NCBI GenBank assembly: GCA_903892365.1
Contig: CAITIF010000971.1
Coordinates: 1 to 11,690, forward strand
Reading direction: 5' to 3'
Source: an uncultured Pirellula sp.
GTDB lineage: Bacteria; Planctomycetota; Planctomycetia; Pirellulales; Pirellulaceae
DNA: 11,690 nucleotides
Positions 2,808-11,678 of the stretch are shown in pieces (the stretch's first letter is position 1; every line of letters begins with the position of its first letter). The position numbers were made by a program, and so were the translations under genes. The notes beneath the pieces are model-generated. The model was not told the DNA's origin. It worked only from the letters and a program-made list of their open reading frames with translations, and made no database searches.

Positions 2808-3701
2808 TTAACGCACCTCGGACGAGGAGACTCGTCTCAGGACCAACACTTCACCTCGGCCTTGATAATTTTGGTCCGCGATCTGGCGTTGCACCCAACG
2901 TGTTCGCGGAATCTTAATCGGAGTCGGTCGAATCGGAGCATCCGAGATAACCTCGGTCCATGTTTGCATCGCTTCGATTTGAACTCGTTCCAAATGTTTC
3001 CAAAGCAGCGGTAGGAAACTCAATTCGAACTCTCGCGCTTCCGACAGGGATGCGGACGGTTCCCCAGTATAGTCTCGGAACAAGATGATGCTCCCACGTC
3101 TCAGACCAGCTCCCCAATGGTCTCCGAGCTCGCCAGCAATAACCAGGGACCCGGCGATCATTTGGGACGCTGCATAGCTGCCAATGTCCCCGCCAACAAA
3201 GACAGTTCCTCTTCTCATGCGCTCGCAGGCGCGATTCCCGACGGAGCCTGCAATAAAGAGATCGCCGCCACGCAGGCCAGATTTTTGGCCTGGTAAAGGG
3301 GAGCCAAGATTGTCGCCACAATTGCCGCTCAAGTAGATCAGCCCATCCTTCATGCCGGCCGCCAAATCTCCCCCAGCATTACCGGCAATCAAAACTCGCC
3401 CGCCCGCCAGCTCCATCGCGGTTCGTTCCCCAACATCCCCCAAGATGCACAAGGTACCGCTTTTCATTCGGTATCCCAGCTTCTCAATGCTCTTGCAATC
3501 CCCTTCGATCAAAACGATACCCTCGCAGCTCGTTTCGCATAGCTCGACCCGAAACACTTTGGATATCGGCACAGGGCCTTGATCGGTCGCTATCGACATT
3601 GCCTCGATCGCCTCTTGGGAGAGGTTCTTAAAGGCTTCTGGGGAGAGCGACGATCCATCCATGCTACCCAAAAACGAACTTTGTTTTCTAAGGATTAGCA
3701 T
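2808..3701 (-). CDS. fhcC: Formyltransferase/hydrolase complex subunit C (FhcC/FwdC-like)
   Basis: This 297-residue protein contains a run of GXGXG-type beta-helix repeats over about residues 62-210, such as GDVGERTAMELAGGRVLIAG, GNCGD, GGDIGSYAASQMIAG and GELGDHWGAGLRRG. The N-terminal SLSPEAFKNLSQEAIEAMSI and the C-terminal RWVQRQIADQNYQGRGEVLVLRR fit subunit C of formylmethanofuran dehydrogenase, which in methylotrophs and planctomycetes is the Fhc complex. In that family it is a structural partner in transfer and hydrolysis of the formyl group from formyl-tetrahydromethanopterin to formate in the cytoplasm. The other family with this domain, the glutamate synthase large-subunit C-terminal region, lacks these ends. 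It is the last gene of a three-gene minus unit, 6 nt after the CBM9-like gene. No fhcA, B or D is in the window. Confidence 0.8.
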   Translation of the reverse strand: MLILRKQSSFLGSMDGSSLSPEAFKNLSQEAIEAMSIATDQGPVPISKVFRVELCETSCEGIVLIEGDCKSIEKLGYRMKSGTLCILGDVGERTAMELAGGRVLIAGNAGGDLAAGMKDGLIYLSGNCGDNLGSPLPGQKSGLRGGDLFIAGSVGNRACERMRRGTVFVGGDIGSYAASQMIAGSLVIAGELGDHWGAGLRRGSIILFRDYTGEPSASLSEAREFELSFLPLLWKHLERVQIEAMQTWTEVISDAPIRPTPIKIPRTRWVQRQIADQNYQGRGEVLVLRRVSSSEVR

Positions 3702-5475: not shown

Positions 5476-6099
5476 CTAAGTTATAGTCGAATTCCTACGA
5501 TTGACCAACCAGATCATCATGATGGCATCGTAAATCCAATGCGCAACGATAGGAACCAAAAGATTCTGGAAATACCAATGCAGCACTCCCATCGCCACCC
5601 CCATCAGAAAGGCAAAAACGACGTAAGTGACGCTCATGGGATGAGCCAATCCAAACGCCAAAGAACTAACCAGAATTCCAAGGACCAGCGTTTGGGTTGT
5701 GCAGGTTTGCATCTCCCCAACCATCCCCTGCATGATCAGACCTCGAAATAGTAGCTCCTCGCCGACGCCAGCAGCCAGTGCCACCGCGATCAATTGACCC
5801 ACCGATAGACCATTCAGGAGAAGCCTCAATTGCTGCTCGGCGTATTCGCTGAGAGATTGAATGGCTCGAATCGGCAACATGCCAGCAAGCTGCATCGCGA
5901 TCGCTAGAACAATTCCAGCAACGCACCCTACAACCAAACCTTGTCCAACCGAATACCAATCTCTCCAATCTGGAATCAAGGATCGCGGGTCCAGGCCGAC
6001 AACCCACCCCACAACGATGGCGATCAAGCCAAGCCCTAGCTCGACGGCACACATACTCAAAAAGCGTTTGTCGCGAGCCTCTAGCATGACCAACGGCAT
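5476..6099 (-). CDS. CPBP family intramembrane protease (CAAX/Abi type)
   Basis: This 207-residue polytopic membrane protein has the motifs of the CPBP (CAAX protease and bacteriocin-processing, Abi) family: motif 1 EELLFRG (114-120, the paired Glu and the Arg), motif 2 FGLAHP (149-154, His153), and motif 3 HWIYD (187-191). These residues form the metal site of the glutamate-type intramembrane protease Rce1 in characterised relatives. Hydrophobic segments lie around 18-36, 50-75, 98-113, 135-150, 155-178 and 180-198. I start at the ATG at 6099: GGAG lies 5 nt upstream, whereas the longer frame to 6288 gives a Cys/Gly-rich leader that is only the shadow of the upstream gene. It overlaps the kinase-nucleotidyltransferase gene by 19 nt, so it is probably co-translated. 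Its substrate is unknown. Confidence 0.85.
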   Translation of the reverse strand: MPLVMLEARDKRFLSMCAVELGLGLIAIVVGWVVGLDPRSLIPDWRDWYSVGQGLVVGCVAGIVLAIAMQLAGMLPIRAIQSLSEYAEQQLRLLLNGLSVGQLIAVALAAGVGEELLFRGLIMQGMVGEMQTCTTQTLVLGILVSSLAFGLAHPMSVTYVVFAFLMGVAMGVLHWYFQNLLVPIVAHWIYDAIMMIWLVNRRNSTIT

Positions 6100-9000
6100 A
6101 ACTGCTCCACATATCCCGCCGATCCATCGCGGACCCAGCCATCCAATTGGCCAGGTTCCTTCATTTGTTGACCTCGCATGGTATGTACAGCCAGATACTC
6201 GCATGCAACATCCGACAAATTGGACATGTCCCCCCAAAGCTTCTCGAATTGAGTTACCGGATACACATCTTCTTGCCCCAACCCCCACCGCTTCTTCACA
6301 TCTTTGATCGTGATGTAAGTGGGCATCTTCGCCGACATGGTACGAACCGCTTGCTGAGTTAGTTCTTCGTTCGCTAACTTCTCGCGATCGAGTTCAAAGA
6401 TGGCTAGCAACTTATCAATATCGATCCAGGTGGTCATGGACGAATAGAAAGATAACGCAAACTCATCTCGCTCACGTGGCATCGCCATGCCCTCCAGAAG
6501 CCGCTTTCGACCTCCGACAATCGCTAAGCCGCCTCCGCGGTCGTCGATCCGCCGGCTGATCACTTCAAAACTAAGGCATGCACCGGAGTCGATGTGCTTG
6601 CTCAAAACAGTCGAATCCAGATTGGCTCCTAGAGTGTCGATGTTGTGCAACATCAACGTCTTTAAACTGGGTTGTGCGACAAGCATCTGATGCAGCACAC
6701 CGTTACGCAGCATATTCGGGACTTCGTACCAATGCCCCACCGGATGCATGCATTGCTGAGGCAGATTGTCGGTATAATCACTGGCTTCGCCTGTCGATTT
6801 TGCCCAACCCAAGATTGCCGCTTGAGCGCTCTCGCGGACTTTCTGTTGTTGTTCATCAAGAACTTGATGCGCCATTTCTTGCCAAAAGAACCGAAGATCA
6901 CGGGCTGTCGGCACGGTTCGCAATCCTACCGACATTCCGCGCGAAAGATGAACGGGCCCTTCATATCCGTAGTAGTTGTGTTCGGACAAATGTTGCTCCA
7001 TCGGACCATGAGTCATGTAACCCGTGGTAAAGACATGAGGCACGGTCGCACCAAAGGTCTGCGAGGTTTTCCTGCTTTTGGCCAAATGGACTTCAATAAA
7101 ACTGCGATGCTTTCCAGCAAACTTGCAGAAAGGGTGCATGCCTTTGACCACCCCAGCACCTCCAGTCCATCGCGATCCAACACCAGCCGCGAGCGTCACA
7201 ACCGCAACTTCGCCTCGTTCCAACGCTTCGCGGCCCGATTTTGATTCCATCGATTGGCCACTAAGCAGGGGATTGAGAGCCCTTAAATCGATCAGGTCCT
7301 TGGCTGGAACATCTTGAATCGTGGTTTCGGGATGAAGGCGATTTTCAGAAAGACCAATACGTCCCGAAAGCAACTCGCTTCGAATCAATTCATGCTGCTG
7401 TCGATCAAAGCCGTTGATGCGCAGCGATTCATGCAACTGCGTCTTCGAGTCGGAACCCGTTTGAGCTTGCGGCAAGATCCGGTCCAGCAGCCATCGAGCG
7501 CGACCATCCCCCTCGCGGCACGATCGGTTCAATCGCATCAGTTCACGCTGCGATTGCGCACTCAGATCACGCATGTCTTTGCGAATCAGCTTGGGGGCTA
7601 AGATCGCATAGTAGCCGTCAGGCATGGTTGCAGCTTCCCCCTGAAGCAGTTCTGCCCAGGATCCACGGTCGTTGATCGCGAAATCATAGACAACCGGATC
7701 CATCGCAAAAGGCAACCGGGTTTGCATCTCGCGTTTGGTGGTTACCAATGTTTGAAGCAACCAATCGCGAGCCTCTTTCTGGACTTCGGGTGCAAAGAAG
7801 AAACCCATCCCTCCACCCGACATGCCTCCAAGCATCAGGAAGCCCCAGAACTGGTCTCCCCAACGGGCCCGGCATTGTTCGATCATCGAATCGGTGAAAC
7901 AATTGGTGCACCATGGGATAATGACTTGAAGTGGACCGACGAAGTTCTCTGTGGTAAGCCGCGCAACGCTTCGAATATCTCCTTGTTCCATCGCATGGAC
8001 CAGGTTCTCAAAAATGCGCTGCGCTTCTAGCCTAGCTTTCCATTCGCGATCGGCTCGAACCAGATATTTTTCAGAAACCATTTCTAAAATGGGTCCGACA
8101 TTTTGCGCCATGCCGCCATAGATCAGAACCAGACTATCTTCCAGAGCCTTTCTGCTCTGAGGCGAAATGCGATCCTCTTTCAGGATCGTGTGCTGTGGCA
8201 TCAAGCGGCCTCGACTGACTCCAAACTCGGGATCGGTCTCCGACGCGAGCACTCCTTCGATCCGTTTGATACCCGGCCATACTCCACCCGAATCTTGCCA
8301 GCCACCGCCTGATCCGCCCAGCCATTCGCCCAAGATGGCTCGTGCGGTGATCAAGCGTTGATCCATCTCTTGGAGCCCGCCTTGCAATTCGGAAACTTGT
8401 CCGGTCGCTCGCATCAAGACCGAAATCAAGCATCCCAATAGATTGGTGGAAACGGCTAACCTGGAACCTTTGGGAATGTCGTTCACCTTGGATACCAGTT
8501 CCAAACCAAGCCCCGGCTCGCCAACAAGCGTTTCAAGCAATTCCGAGATCTTGCGATGGCAACCTTCCATCGCGGGTGGAACCAACCCCGAAGCGATCAG
8601 AGCCGACTTCAGCAGGCCTAGATAATCTTTCGCGAAATCAAACACTTCGTCGATCTCGGTCAGTTCCGCTTCGGCACCTAAATCAGCACTGACCAATCGC
8701 AGCACCGGACGATCGATCACCCTCAGGTAGGCTTCAACAGGTGGTCGCGGCGATGCATCTCGGCCGTAAACCCCCAAGTCAACCGATGCATTGAGAACGC
8801 GAGCCCCCTCGGGGTAATCCATCCCCAAGAAGAAAATATCGCTCCAGCCCGAGTGCGAAAAATCCATGCGCACGCTGGTCTTCTCACTCAAGATCGGAAA
8901 GTCTCCGGTCTCAGGATCGGGGCGGCTTAGCAATTTGTTGAGCCGAAGTGGGTGTTCGCTGGGATGACCGATGCGAAACATCCATTGATTCCCTCGGACG

Positions 9001-9434
9001 GTTCGGACGCTACGGCGGACTTGGTCGGCAAGTGTCTGAATCCCCAGTTGATGGTACGCTCGAGCCAACGCGCTGGAGATGGCCAATGTCGGCCCATCTT
9101 GGCTTTGAATCGCGAGCATATGATCAATCGCTTCAGGGAAACGCCGGCCCAAGATATGCTGGTACGCCTCGTACGGCAGCAAACCACTTTGCGATTCCGG
9201 AAAGGTTTTGGGTAAATGGTAGCGATAGATGGCTGCTAGAAAGAATAAAGCCCGAACGCGATGGTACAGATTGCCGGTCCTGCGACGGAACGTATCTAAG
9301 TCCGCTGCTGCCTCCAACAGCTGGTTGGCCTGGAGACCAAGGCAAAGCGATTCCAGGGTGCGATGCCGAATCGTATCGTCCAGCGATTCAATCGTTTCGA
9401 TCCAAGGGTTGGATTCATGATGGATAGGGGGCAT
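6081..9434 (-). CDS. GHMP (fucokinase-like) kinase / UDPGP pyrophosphorylase fusion
   Basis: This 1117-residue protein appears to join three parts. Residues 1-150 are helical and resemble no named domain. About 185-575 look like a GHMP sugar kinase of the fucokinase branch: SVRMDFSHSGWSDIFFLG (187-204), the loop PKGSRLAVSTNLLG (321-334), GGSGGGWQDSGGVWPGIK (373-390) and GGMSGGGMGFF (536-546). About 740-1090 look like a UDPGP-family nucleotidyltransferase: VTLAAGVGSRW (746-756) with a following Lys764, HPVGHWYE (897-904), NIDTLGANLD (931-940), and GGGLAIVGGRKRLLE (967-981). Such a protein would phosphorylate a sugar at C1 and join it to a nucleotide. Known FKP enzymes have the reverse order (pyrophosphorylase first). 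The kinase loop departs from the usual GSGLGTSS. The start has AGGAAG 8 nt upstream, 15 nt after the preceding stop. The sugar and nucleotide are unknown. Confidence 0.78.
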   Translation of the reverse strand: MPPIHHESNPWIETIESLDDTIRHRTLESLCLGLQANQLLEAAADLDTFRRRTGNLYHRVRALFFLAAIYRYHLPKTFPESQSGLLPYEAYQHILGRRFPEAIDHMLAIQSQDGPTLAISSALARAYHQLGIQTLADQVRRSVRTVRGNQWMFRIGHPSEHPLRLNKLLSRPDPETGDFPILSEKTSVRMDFSHSGWSDIFFLGMDYPEGARVLNASVDLGVYGRDASPRPPVEAYLRVIDRPVLRLVSADLGAEAELTEIDEVFDFAKDYLGLLKSALIASGLVPPAMEGCHRKISELLETLVGEPGLGLELVSKVNDIPKGSRLAVSTNLLGCLISVLMRATGQVSELQGGLQEMDQRLITARAILGEWLGGSGGGWQDSGGVWPGIKRIEGVLASETDPEFGVSRGRLMPQHTILKEDRISPQSRKALEDSLVLIYGGMAQNVGPILEMVSEKYLVRADREWKARLEAQRIFENLVHAMEQGDIRSVARLTTENFVGPLQVIIPWCTNCFTDSMIEQCRARWGDQFWGFLMLGGMSGGGMGFFFAPEVQKEARDWLLQTLVTTKREMQTRLPFAMDPVVYDFAINDRGSWAELLQGEAATMPDGYYAILAPKLIRKDMRDLSAQSQRELMRLNRSCREGDGRARWLLDRILPQAQTGSDSKTQLHESLRINGFDRQQHELIRSELLSGRIGLSENRLHPETTIQDVPAKDLIDLRALNPLLSGQSMESKSGREALERGEVAVVTLAAGVGSRWTGGAGVVKGMHPFCKFAGKHRSFIEVHLAKSRKTSQTFGATVPHVFTTGYMTHGPMEQHLSEHNYYGYEGPVHLSRGMSVGLRTVPTARDLRFFWQEMAHQVLDEQQQKVRESAQAAILGWAKSTGEASDYTDNLPQQCMHPVGHWYEVPNMLRNGVLHQMLVAQPSLKTLMLHNIDTLGANLDSTVLSKHIDSGACLSFEVISRRIDDRGGGLAIVGGRKRLLEGMAMPRERDEFALSFYSSMTTWIDIDKLLAIFELDREKLANEELTQQAVRTMSAKMPTYITIKDVKKRWGLGQEDVYPVTQFEKLWGDMSNLSDVACEYLAVHTMRGQQMKEPGQLDGWVRDGSAGYVEQLCRWSC
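6105..6108 (-). promoter_or_regulatory. Shine-Dalgarno GGAG deciding the CPBP protease start
   Basis: GGAG on the minus strand lies 5 nt before the ATG at 6099, inside the end of the upstream gene. It supports this internal start over in-frame starts up to 6288. Confidence 0.5.
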
Positions 9435-9449: not shown

Positions 9450-10286
9450 TTACTTTTGTACCGCAAGAAGCTCAATCATGTCGCTGAGCACTTTATCACG
9501 ATCTACGCCCGACAACGACAGAGCAAGCTGCGTATTGAGCAGTCCGTATTTGATTCCGATGTTGTAGCGGTGCCCTCGTGCCTCGCAAGCCAGATACCTT
9601 TCTCGCGATGCCAGCTCGTTCAATGCTTCGGCAAGAGAAACGGGCCGATCGACGGTCTTAGCGATTCGCTCCAACACTTCCAAGATCATCGGTGTCAGCA
9701 CATGAATACCGAAGAAACAAAGGTACATACCGCTTCGAAAGCCTGCGATGTTCAATTCCTGTTCTGCTAAAGTCGGAGTGGGCTTCTCAATGACTCGTTT
9801 GACTTCATAGAGTCGATCCGTCTGAGGCAATCGAAGTCCACCGATGGCCCCGAAAAACGGAAGCATTTTCTCTTTCGTGGCCTGGACGCCGGATACCGAG
9901 CAGCCTTCCGCACGAGCCACCTCGATCAGCTGCTGGGCACAGCTCTTTTCCTTGCTGCTCAAGTACAAATGGTCCCCGACCAAATGCAAAAAAGGCTCGT
10001 TCCCCAAAAAGGACCGTGCAGATAAAATCGCTTGGCCATACCCTGTTGGTTTGGGCTGGGTAACAAAAGTCAGCATGTCCAGGTAGCCACCTGCGGCCCG
10101 ACGGTAGGCTTCTTCGTTGCCCGGGCTGATGACAATCGCCAAAGACTCGATTCCCGCCGAAACGACTTCTTCAATGATCATTTCCAGGGCTGTTTTTTCG
10201 ACCCCGTCCCGGTCAACCAATCGCTGAAGCGGAAGCGCCGACTGGCCTGGGCCCGCCGCTGTTACAAGGGCTTTGCTGATTTGCAT
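9450..10286 (-). CDS. GalU-like sugar-phosphate nucleotidyltransferase with altered loop
   Basis: This 278-residue protein has the nucleotidyltransferase fold of glucose-1-phosphate uridylyltransferases, which join UTP and a sugar 1-phosphate in the cytoplasm. Landmarks are an N-terminal strand KALVTAAG (5-12), QPKPTGYGQAI (77-87, cf. PLGLGHAV in GalU), the metal-site-like GDHLY (104-108), VIEKP (165-169), and YNIGIKYGLLNTQLAL (241-256). The nucleotide loop is AAGPGQSALPLQRLVDRDG, so the Thr-Arg of GxGTR and the Lys of the PKEMLPL segment are missing. From memory, a planctomycete branch with an LPLQ..VDRDG loop exists, so this may be a variant family rather than a broken gene. I start at the ATG at 10286 (MQISKALVTAAG); the frame stays open upstream to 10421 but that leader has no homologous look. 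It is followed after 15 nt by the kinase fusion. Confidence 0.8.
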   Translation of the reverse strand: MQISKALVTAAGPGQSALPLQRLVDRDGVEKTALEMIIEEVVSAGIESLAIVISPGNEEAYRRAAGGYLDMLTFVTQPKPTGYGQAILSARSFLGNEPFLHLVGDHLYLSSKEKSCAQQLIEVARAEGCSVSGVQATKEKMLPFFGAIGGLRLPQTDRLYEVKRVIEKPTPTLAEQELNIAGFRSGMYLCFFGIHVLTPMILEVLERIAKTVDRPVSLAEALNELASRERYLACEARGHRYNIGIKYGLLNTQLALSLSGVDRDKVLSDMIELLAVQK

Positions 10287-10415
10287 ACTATCGAGTTCAA
10301 TGGTGGAAACAGAAAAACGCTTAAACGCACATTCGCAGACTAACCCGAACCAGGCATCGTTTCTACCTGGCCGCCTGCCCAAAATACCAAGAAATCGTTG
10401 TCTAACCAGAATTTC
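10287..10415. other. Divergent promoter region of nucleotidyltransferase and lipoate ligase
   Basis: These 129 bp lie between two divergent starts and must hold at least the promoter of the minus-strand sugar unit. I see no clear -35/-10 pair or Shine-Dalgarno for either gene. The only dyad is CCAGG (10350-10354) with CCTGG (10366-10370) around an 11-nt loop, which is weak. Confidence 0.35.
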
Positions 10416-11207
10416 ATGCAACTCATTCGGAATACACGGAAAAACCCAGTCGAGAATCTCGCTTTTGACGAAGCCATGATCGAATGGGCCGACACACGGT
10501 CGGAAAACGGCTTACCTAGCGAAGAACTGCTTCGCCTGTGGGAAATGCCCACTCCGTGTGTCGTGCTGGGCCGTGCCAGCAAATGGGATATGGAGGTAAA
10601 CCACGCCAACTGCGAACGCCAAGGGATCCCTGTTTTTCGACGAATGAGTGGCGGCGCCACGGTCGTGGCTGGACCAGGCTGCCTAATGTATTCGCTTCTT
10701 CTGAGCTACGAATCCCGACCCGCGTTGCGAATGCTGGACGTGGCCCATTCCCAGGTAATGCAACGGCTCCAAGTCGCAAGTCAGGCAACCCTGAAAGCAT
10801 TTGACTTACCGGGTGTGATCGAATTGCAAGGAACGTGTGATCTGACTCTGGCCAATCGCAAGTTCTCCGGGAATGCATTGCGATGCAAACGAAACTGGAT
10901 GCTCTATCACGGAACCATATTGATCTCCATGCCACTGGAATGGCTGGGACAGTATCTCTTGGAACCACCTCGTCAGCCCGAGTATCGCGAGAAACGCAAT
11001 CATCTGGATTTCGTGACAACCTTGTTACCAGCCAATTCGAAATGTTCGCCCATCGAATTTCGCCAAGTGCTTGAACGACAAATAGCCATCCAATGGGGCG
11101 CACATAACGTCGAAGGCGAGCCGAGTTTCATCGATGAAATCGAAGCGTTGGAAGAACAGCTCATGGAGACGCGATACGGCAAGGACCAATGGCATCGCGG
11201 ATCCTAG
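10416..11207 (+). CDS. lplA: Lipoate-protein ligase A family protein
   Basis: This 263-residue protein belongs to the BPL/LPL catalytic family, which attaches lipoate (or octanoate) to a lysine of 2-oxoacid dehydrogenase E2 subunits and GcvH in the cytoplasm. Seen in sequence: PVENLAFDEAM (11-21), PCVVLGRASK (47-56), the lipoyl-AMP loop RRMSGGATVVAGPGCLMYS (75-93), and ANRKFSGNALRCKRNWMLYH (146-165), whose Lys149 is the expected catalytic lysine. The protein is short, about 260 residues, without the C-terminal accessory domain of E. coli LplA, so it may need a separate partner or act as an octanoyl/lipoyl transferase (LipM type). I chose the ATG at 10416 because MQLIRNTRKNPVENLAFDEA fits family N-termini; a TTG at 10398 would add six residues. 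Neither has a Shine-Dalgarno. Divergent from the sugar-activation unit. Confidence 0.83.
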   Translation: MQLIRNTRKNPVENLAFDEAMIEWADTRSENGLPSEELLRLWEMPTPCVVLGRASKWDMEVNHANCERQGIPVFRRMSGGATVVAGPGCLMYSLLLSYESRPALRMLDVAHSQVMQRLQVASQATLKAFDLPGVIELQGTCDLTLANRKFSGNALRCKRNWMLYHGTILISMPLEWLGQYLLEPPRQPEYREKRNHLDFVTTLLPANSKCSPIEFRQVLERQIAIQWGAHNVEGEPSFIDEIEALEEQLMETRYGKDQWHRGS

Positions 11208-11300
11208 GGCGATCGAAACGACTTTGACTTCTTGACTCCAACTAGTGAAAATCAATGCCGATTAGTATTCCCATTTTAACGACACTGATTGTCAATAAAG

Positions 11301-11305
11301 AAAGG
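11301..11305 (+). promoter_or_regulatory. Shine-Dalgarno-like AAAGG for the start at 11313
   Basis: AAAGG lies 7 nt before the ATG at 11313. It supports this start over the in-frame TTG at 11289. Confidence 0.45.
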
Positions 11306-11312
11306 TAACGAA

Positions 11313-11678
11313 ATGCTCAAGCAAGAAGGTTACGAACTGATGGGGGCTGCGTTCGAGGTTTACAATGTTCAAGGCTATGGCATGGCAGAAGAAATCTACC
11401 AACAGAGCCTTGAAATCGAACTGGGCCTGCGTTCCATTCCGTTCATCAGCAAAGCACCTGTCGATGTCTACTTCAAAGGGCATAAGCTAAGTACAAAGTA
11501 TCAACCGGATTTGCTTGTTTTCGGCGAAATCGTTGTTGAGCTAAAAGCGATCAAAGCACTTGCGTCGGAGCACGAAGCACAACCATTCAATTACATGCGT
11601 ATCTCTGGAAAAAAAGTTGGCTACTTGATCAACTTCGGGACTGCCTGTGAACTGGAATGGAAACGTTTTGTAATTTGA
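11313..11678 (+). CDS. GxxExxY protein (PD-(D/E)XK nuclease-like)
   Basis: This 121-residue protein carries the family motif GMAEEIY (G..E..Y) near residues 23-29, followed by QQSLEIELGLRSIPF. It then has the PD...E.K-type core YQPDLLVFGEIVVELKAI, where the Asp, Glu and Lys match the catalytic triad of PD-(D/E)XK nucleases, and a late INFG. The size fits PF13366 (GxxExxY / PDDEXK_3) proteins, which are frequent as single genes in planctomycetes and many other bacteria and have no settled function. The longer in-frame TTG at 11289 is less likely because the ATG has AAAGG upstream. It lies 105 bp after the lipoate ligase, on the same strand, with no terminator visible between them; co-transcription is possible but not shown. 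Confidence 0.85.
   Translation: MLKQEGYELMGAAFEVYNVQGYGMAEEIYQQSLEIELGLRSIPFISKAPVDVYFKGHKLSTKYQPDLLVFGEIVVELKAIKALASEHEAQPFNYMRISGKKVGYLINFGTACELEWKRFVI

Follow-up and report, generated by a model that had tools for sequence, protein, structure and literature searches.

The locus and its genes

The 11,690-nucleotide stretch analysed here (positions 1 to 11,690 of contig CAITIF010000971.1, assembly GCA_903892365.1, from an uncultured Pirellula sp.; henceforth the window) carries on its minus strand a gene for a protein in which a sugar kinase related to that of FKP is followed by a nucleotidyltransferase of the UDPGP family and, immediately upstream, a gene for a GalU-like protein (Table 1). 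A first-pass annotation had proposed a kinase-pyrophosphorylase fusion in the order reverse to FKP, and this proposal holds: the kinase covers residues ~176-605 and the transferase ~658-1117, and the motifs lie at the positions it gave; the strand and the upstream gene were missing from it. A scan of public genomes yielded at least 558 relatives, and in 80/80 of the loci kept a single frame holds both halves, ruling out the frameshift or assembly join between them that the annotation had named as one possible refutation of its proposal.

Table 1. Features of the fusion and its partner, followed by neighbouring genes of the window
Feature	Positions	Strand	Remarks
Kinase-nucleotidyltransferase fusion gene	6081..9434	minus	1117 aa; ATG start at 9434
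Helical N-terminal domain, residues 1-175	8910..9434	minus	model helices 10-153; overlay on FKP linker helices
FKP-like GHMP kinase domain, residues 176-605	7620..8909	minus	profile and structure
SVRMDFSHSGWSDI, residues 187-200	8835..8876	minus	Arg189, Trp197, Asp199 = FKP Arg592, Trp599, Asp601; FKP Thr602 -> Ile200
IPKGSRLAVST, residues 320-330	8445..8477	minus	altered phosphate-binding loop; FKP counterpart IPxGSGLGTSS
GGGWQDSGG, residues 376-384	8283..8309	minus	holds predicted general base Asp381 (FKP Asp762)
UDPGP-family nucleotidyltransferase domain, residues 658-1117	6084..7463	minus	Pfam, profile comparison, structure
Nucleotide loop LAAGVGSRW...VVK, residues 748-764	7143..7193	minus	Arg755, Lys764
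GalU-like partner gene	9450..10286	minus	278 aa; ends 15 bases before fusion start; catalytic GTR/PK motif eroded
CPBP intramembrane protease frame	5476-6288	minus	Rce1-like, E 1.4e-18
Formylmethanofuran dehydrogenase subunit C homologue	2808-3701	minus	TIGR03122
Lipoate/biotin ligase family protein	10398-11207	plus	LplA-B_cat, E 1.4e-33
GxxExxY-type PDDEXK_3 protein	11289-11678	plus	PF13366, E 4.1e-37

In locus L129 (G191:C101), a single in-frame stop splits the kinase and transferase halves into frames of 889 and 673 codons, either by natural fission or by sequence error. The longest reading of the protease frame overlaps the 3' end of the fusion by ~200 bases; its true start probably lies further in.

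The kinase and N-terminal domains

The Pfam GHMP model gives no match to the fusion protein at E <= 1, and by that search alone the assignment as a fucokinase-like kinase would fall; the NCBIfam FKP profile, profile comparison, the FKP structures and structure comparison overturn this; the domain is nearest to the FKP kinase and has the fold of the GHMP kinase superfamily. The NCBIfam model (NF009948) matches residues 184-498 (E 7.5e-18), over model positions 612-891 only and with 63.6 bits against an equivalog threshold of >=721; profile comparison with FKPs aligns residues 181-591 (probability 99.8, E 2.4e-29). Conservation was read from 211 full-length fusions (that of the window, 120 database proteins and 90 loci), which form 161 clusters at 90% identity and 105 at 80%. 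Of the sugar-binding and catalytic residues listed in excerpts of PMC11982464, the counterparts Arg189, Trp197, Asp199 and Ser329 are conserved in all 211, and Glu370, Gln380 and Asp381 in 210, the last sequence having a gap; the equivalents of the FKP-type catalytic Arg592, Glu751 and Asp762 are among them (210-211/211).

A tree was built from 30 kinases: 16 fusions, 5 proteins that are FKPs or resemble them, and 9 lone kinases, with galacto- and arabinokinases outside the set. Fusions and FKPs stand together in it against the lone kinases with support 99/98, and the fusions form a single clade (100/100) on a stem of 5.59 changes per column; their exact placement is unsure because of the long branches, of which the tree program warns. 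The HddA/WcbL heptose kinases differ in motif as well as in branch, the sampled lone kinases having GGGTD where fusions and FKP have GWSD or GWTD.

The N-terminal ~150 residues, left unexplained by the first-pass annotation, overlay the linker helices of FKP in the structural model, and structure comparison aligns FKP 487-949 to model residues 9-597. Profile comparison finds no sequence similarity between these helices and the linker (probability 0.1), so the link is structural only, and sequence homology was rejected on the same value; helical bundles overlay easily, which limits the weight of this model-based match.

The transferase domain

As the annotation had expected, the UDPGP model (PF01704) matches residues 892-1051 (E 1.4e-9), with 37.7 bits against a gathering score of 22, and when its profile is compared with that of ten ordinary UDPGP proteins of the same genomes, the probability is 99.8. 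No match to an FKP-type N-terminal transferase is listed in the Pfam and NCBIfam searches. An FKP with swapped halves, or a circularly permuted one, was therefore rejected: the transferase belongs to another family. The whole-model structure search is silent on other families, since its list was filled by the transferase part and absence from it is no evidence.

The catalytic Lys and Arg residues and the metal Asp (Arg755, Lys764, Asp933, Lys1092) are kept in 211/211 fusions. When the residues of AnUGP named in excerpts of PMC10470519 are mapped by profile alignment with ordinary UDPGP proteins, Lys135, Gly227, His228, Asn256, Asp258 and Glu307 fall on Lys764, Gly900, His901, Asn931, Asp933 and Glu981, and Lys403 probably on Lys1092, with the same letter in all 211 throughout; Arg141 of AfUAP1 (PMC3888555, likewise excerpted) falls on Arg755, always Arg. 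Gly123 of AnUGP corresponds to residue 750, which is Ala in 203/211, a departure that speaks against ordinary use of UTP and glucose. Relative to ordinary UDPGP proteins, the fusions also have a strongly conserved insertion at residues 839-895 (LDEQxQKVRESL...GEASDYTDNL), possibly an interface or a sugar-specific element.

The GalU-like partner

The analysis newly identifies the upstream GalU-like gene as a near-obligate partner: it lies beside the fusion in 72/80 loci and, among the genomes sampled in the order, is present in 15/16 that bear the fusion and in 0/130 of the others. The protein has the GalU fold, and scores 99.7 bits on the GalU equivalog TIGR01099 against a threshold of >=326.8. 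Its GLGTR motif is eroded (Thr replaced by Gln in 66/73, Arg retained in 30/73), and the PK segment, with the Lys of PKEM, is missing in alignment with YngB; because the catalytic motif of GalU is eroded, it is probably a regulatory pseudo-transferase. Compared with GalU/GalF, as far as the excerpts of PMC4643126 describe them, it differs in also lacking the PK segment and in being paired with a kinase fusion instead of GalU. Beyond this partner, none of the 80 loci offers a recurrent neighbour as a clue to the sugar.

Distribution

The fusion is present in Planctomycetota, with strong matches (E below 1e-130) in 15/199 genomes of a sample of the phylum and 16/146 of an order sample. Among the names attached to the kept loci are Pirellulaceae, Verrucomicrobia, Akkermansiaceae, Phycisphaerales, Anaerolineae, Chloroflexi and Armatimonadetes; many are metagenome bins, so that some of these names may be wrong. 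Even a single family has it in a scattered way (5 of the 23 f1 genomes among those listed), which fits an optional module, sometimes transferred or lost. A lone sister family of either half was not identified; queries with one half gave, among the 120 listed matches, mainly pieces of fusions, many labelled partial.

A proposed two-gene route to an activated sugar

Two domains with conserved active-site residues, strictly paired with a gene whose product has lost its catalytic motif, suggest that the two genes together form a system for activating a free sugar; the two activities, their coupling and complex formation are what we infer from them. We give a probability of roughly 0.6 to the reading that the fusion is a two-step salvage enzyme, with two activities that together activate a sugar, and that its partner is a pseudo-enzyme. 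The kinase would phosphorylate C1 of the free sugar with ATP; Asp381 would serve as the base, and Arg189 with Ser329/Thr330 would surround the phosphates and metal. The UDPGP domain would join the sugar-1-phosphate to a nucleoside triphosphate, yielding an NDP-sugar, with Arg755, Lys764 and Lys1092 on the phosphates and Asp933 on the metal; and the upstream protein, having the transferase fold without its catalytic motif, would probably bind as a further subunit, in a regulatory or structural role.

Several observations weigh against this reading, or against carrying it over to a known sugar or nucleotide. In the kinase, the position of FKP Thr602, which holds O3 of fucose (PMC11982464, in excerpt), is Ile in 211/211 fusions, and the Gly-rich loop reads GSRLAVST in 211/211 where FKP has GSGLGTSS (Gly715 to Arg, Gly717 to Ala); a loop of the GLGSS type is absent, with the metal-binding Ser and one Thr retained, and the altered loop could weaken the use of ATP. 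The very long fusion branch (5.59) makes any transfer of substrate from FKP risky. In the transferase, the position of AnUGP Gln198, which binds uridine in UGPase, is Leu in 202, Gln in 5 and Met in 4 of the 211 (Leu 98, Gln 4 and Met 3 of the 105 clusters at 80%), this position, residue 838, being the least certain of all in the mapping because it adjoins the insertion; and the position of Asn331, which binds glucose, is residue 1000, Asn in 16/211 and Met, Leu or another residue in 195/211 (both functions as given in the excerpts of PMC10470519). Among the order genomes, fucosidase GH29 is found in 2/16 with the fusion against 43/130 others (45 of 146 overall; Fisher p 0.15), and fucose isomerase-C in 2/16, both weak, against 75/130 (77 overall; p 0.0009, confounded by family), figures to be read with the completeness of the source genome, G000 (77.9%), and the clustering of hosts in three families in mind. 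Most sampled fusion hosts have no fucose-degradation genes, and the distribution of these two families argues against the salvage of fucose being what the fusion commonly does.

As to the parts, the annotation's expectation that UTP is used and a UDP-sugar made keeps the UDPGP fold as its support and is otherwise weakened: UTP cannot be assumed, because the uridine-reading Gln is replaced in 206/211, and we regard it as an even bet. The kinase pocket resembles that of FKP, so that an L-fucose-like 6-deoxy or L-galacto sugar may serve as a tentative first guess. A bolder version is similarly speculative: a machine of three parts, whose kinase, derived from that of FKP but rebuilt in its phosphate loop, would feed a UDPGP-fold transferase that reads uracil unusually, with an obligate pseudo-GalU subunit in control, and would make a nucleotide sugar not otherwise known in these bacteria (in the nucleotide, the sugar or both).

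Of the alternatives, the best placed, though improbable, is a general UDP-sugar salvage enzyme acting with UTP on galactose-, arabinose- or uronate-like sugars. Plants make UDP-sugars by a sugar kinase plus a UDP-sugar pyrophosphorylase, and the fusion would be a one-chain version of that route. The UDPGP fold with its UGPase-type motifs agrees with this, as does the Gln kept at 838 in five sequences; its loss in the other 206 does not, and by profile and tree (the latter built without such kinases) the kinase sides with FKP, not with galacto- or arabinokinases.

That the fusion stands in for FKP, turning L-fucose via fucose-1-phosphate into GDP-fucose with a UDPGP domain switched to GTP, is less probable again. 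The pocket residues Trp, Asp, Gln and Asp match FKP, the uridine-binding Gln is lost, the change of the sugar-binding Asn to hydrophobic residues would suit a 6-deoxy sugar, and few genomes of the order have a true FKP (1/146 over the cut-off, with another near full length in G318); against this stand the invariant Ile for Thr602, the 14/16 fusion genomes without GH29 and 14/16 without a fucose isomerase-C match, and the coexistence of an FKP-like gene with the fusion in G318. A further point against it is that 14/16 fusion genomes already have GDP-mannose 4,6-dehydratase (gmd), and so a de novo route; this gene being found in 137/146 overall and thus nearly universal, it is uninformative by itself, and de novo synthesis of GDP-fucose looks widespread in the order. 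In G318 (L126, C80), where the FKP-like gene is close to full length, the reversed fusion is accompanied by a lone kinase as well, which is FKP-like and has GGWTD (L127).

A role mainly outside salvage, with one domain or both reduced to a regulatory or degenerate remnant, is a thinner prospect still: the phosphate loop is altered in all sequences and the partner is itself degenerate, but both domains keep their residues for general base, metal and phosphates in 210-211/211, across 105 clusters at 80%. An assembly or gene-fusion artefact of the metagenome contig, though the source genome is fragmented (971 contigs), can practically be dismissed, given the same architecture in 80/80 named loci, some of them from complete genomes or cultured organisms (Stieleria, Rhodopirellula, CP036526), and the strong matches in the phylum sample.

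Relation to known systems

The closest relative is FKP, the bifunctional L-fucokinase/GDP-fucose pyrophosphorylase of Bacteroides fragilis (PMC11982464, from excerpts), which shares the kinase domain with its catalytic Asp, Arg and Glu and its sugar-stacking Trp and Asp, the joining of kinase and pyrophosphorylase in one chain and, probably, a helical domain before the kinase. FKP has the pyrophosphorylase first and the kinase last, and its transferase is of the N-terminal type with a β-helix, whereas the fusion has the opposite order, a UDPGP transferase, an altered Gly-rich loop, Ile for Thr602 and a separate pseudo-GalU partner gene. With the UDP-glucose and UDP-GlcNAc pyrophosphorylases of PF01704 it shares the fold, the loop Arg and Lys, the metal Asp and the C-terminal Lys; it differs from them in lying behind a kinase, in the near-constant replacement of the uridine Gln and one sugar-binding Asn, and in the insertion at ~839-895. 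Zebrafish DrGKUP, a glucuronokinase/putative uridyl pyrophosphorylase, also combines a GHMP kinase and a pyrophosphorylase in one chain, but, in the excerpts of PMC3938481, the pyrophosphorylase comes first and is of the short bacterial GalU-like type, and the kinase acts on glucuronic acid.

GHMP kinase-pyrophosphorylase fusions as such are thus known, and the present sequences are already in databases; the system is undescribed in the open-access literature searched (subscription papers lay outside its coverage), which holds no account of a fusion with this order, this transferase family or a paired pseudo-GalU. The fusion solves the task independently, by means of a transferase from another family and with the order reversed. 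Such fusions are one-pot routes to activated sugars, FKP being the known tool for GDP-fucose. Database names for the fusion are UTP--glucose-1-phosphate uridylyltransferase or 'galactokinase/mevalonate kinase-like predicted kinase'; the former conceals the kinase, and plain UDP-glucose synthesis is at odds with the sequence. With its strict pairing, the pseudo-transferase lends itself to testing whether a dead enzyme can be retained as a subunit, a question also debated for GalF.

Other genes in the window

The formylmethanofuran dehydrogenase subunit C homologue scores 176.8 bits against a cut-off of 130.65 and is a C1-transfer pathway gene standing alone in the window. The lipoate/biotin ligase family gene is divergent from the fusion pair, and the PDDEXK_3 gene follows it on the plus strand.

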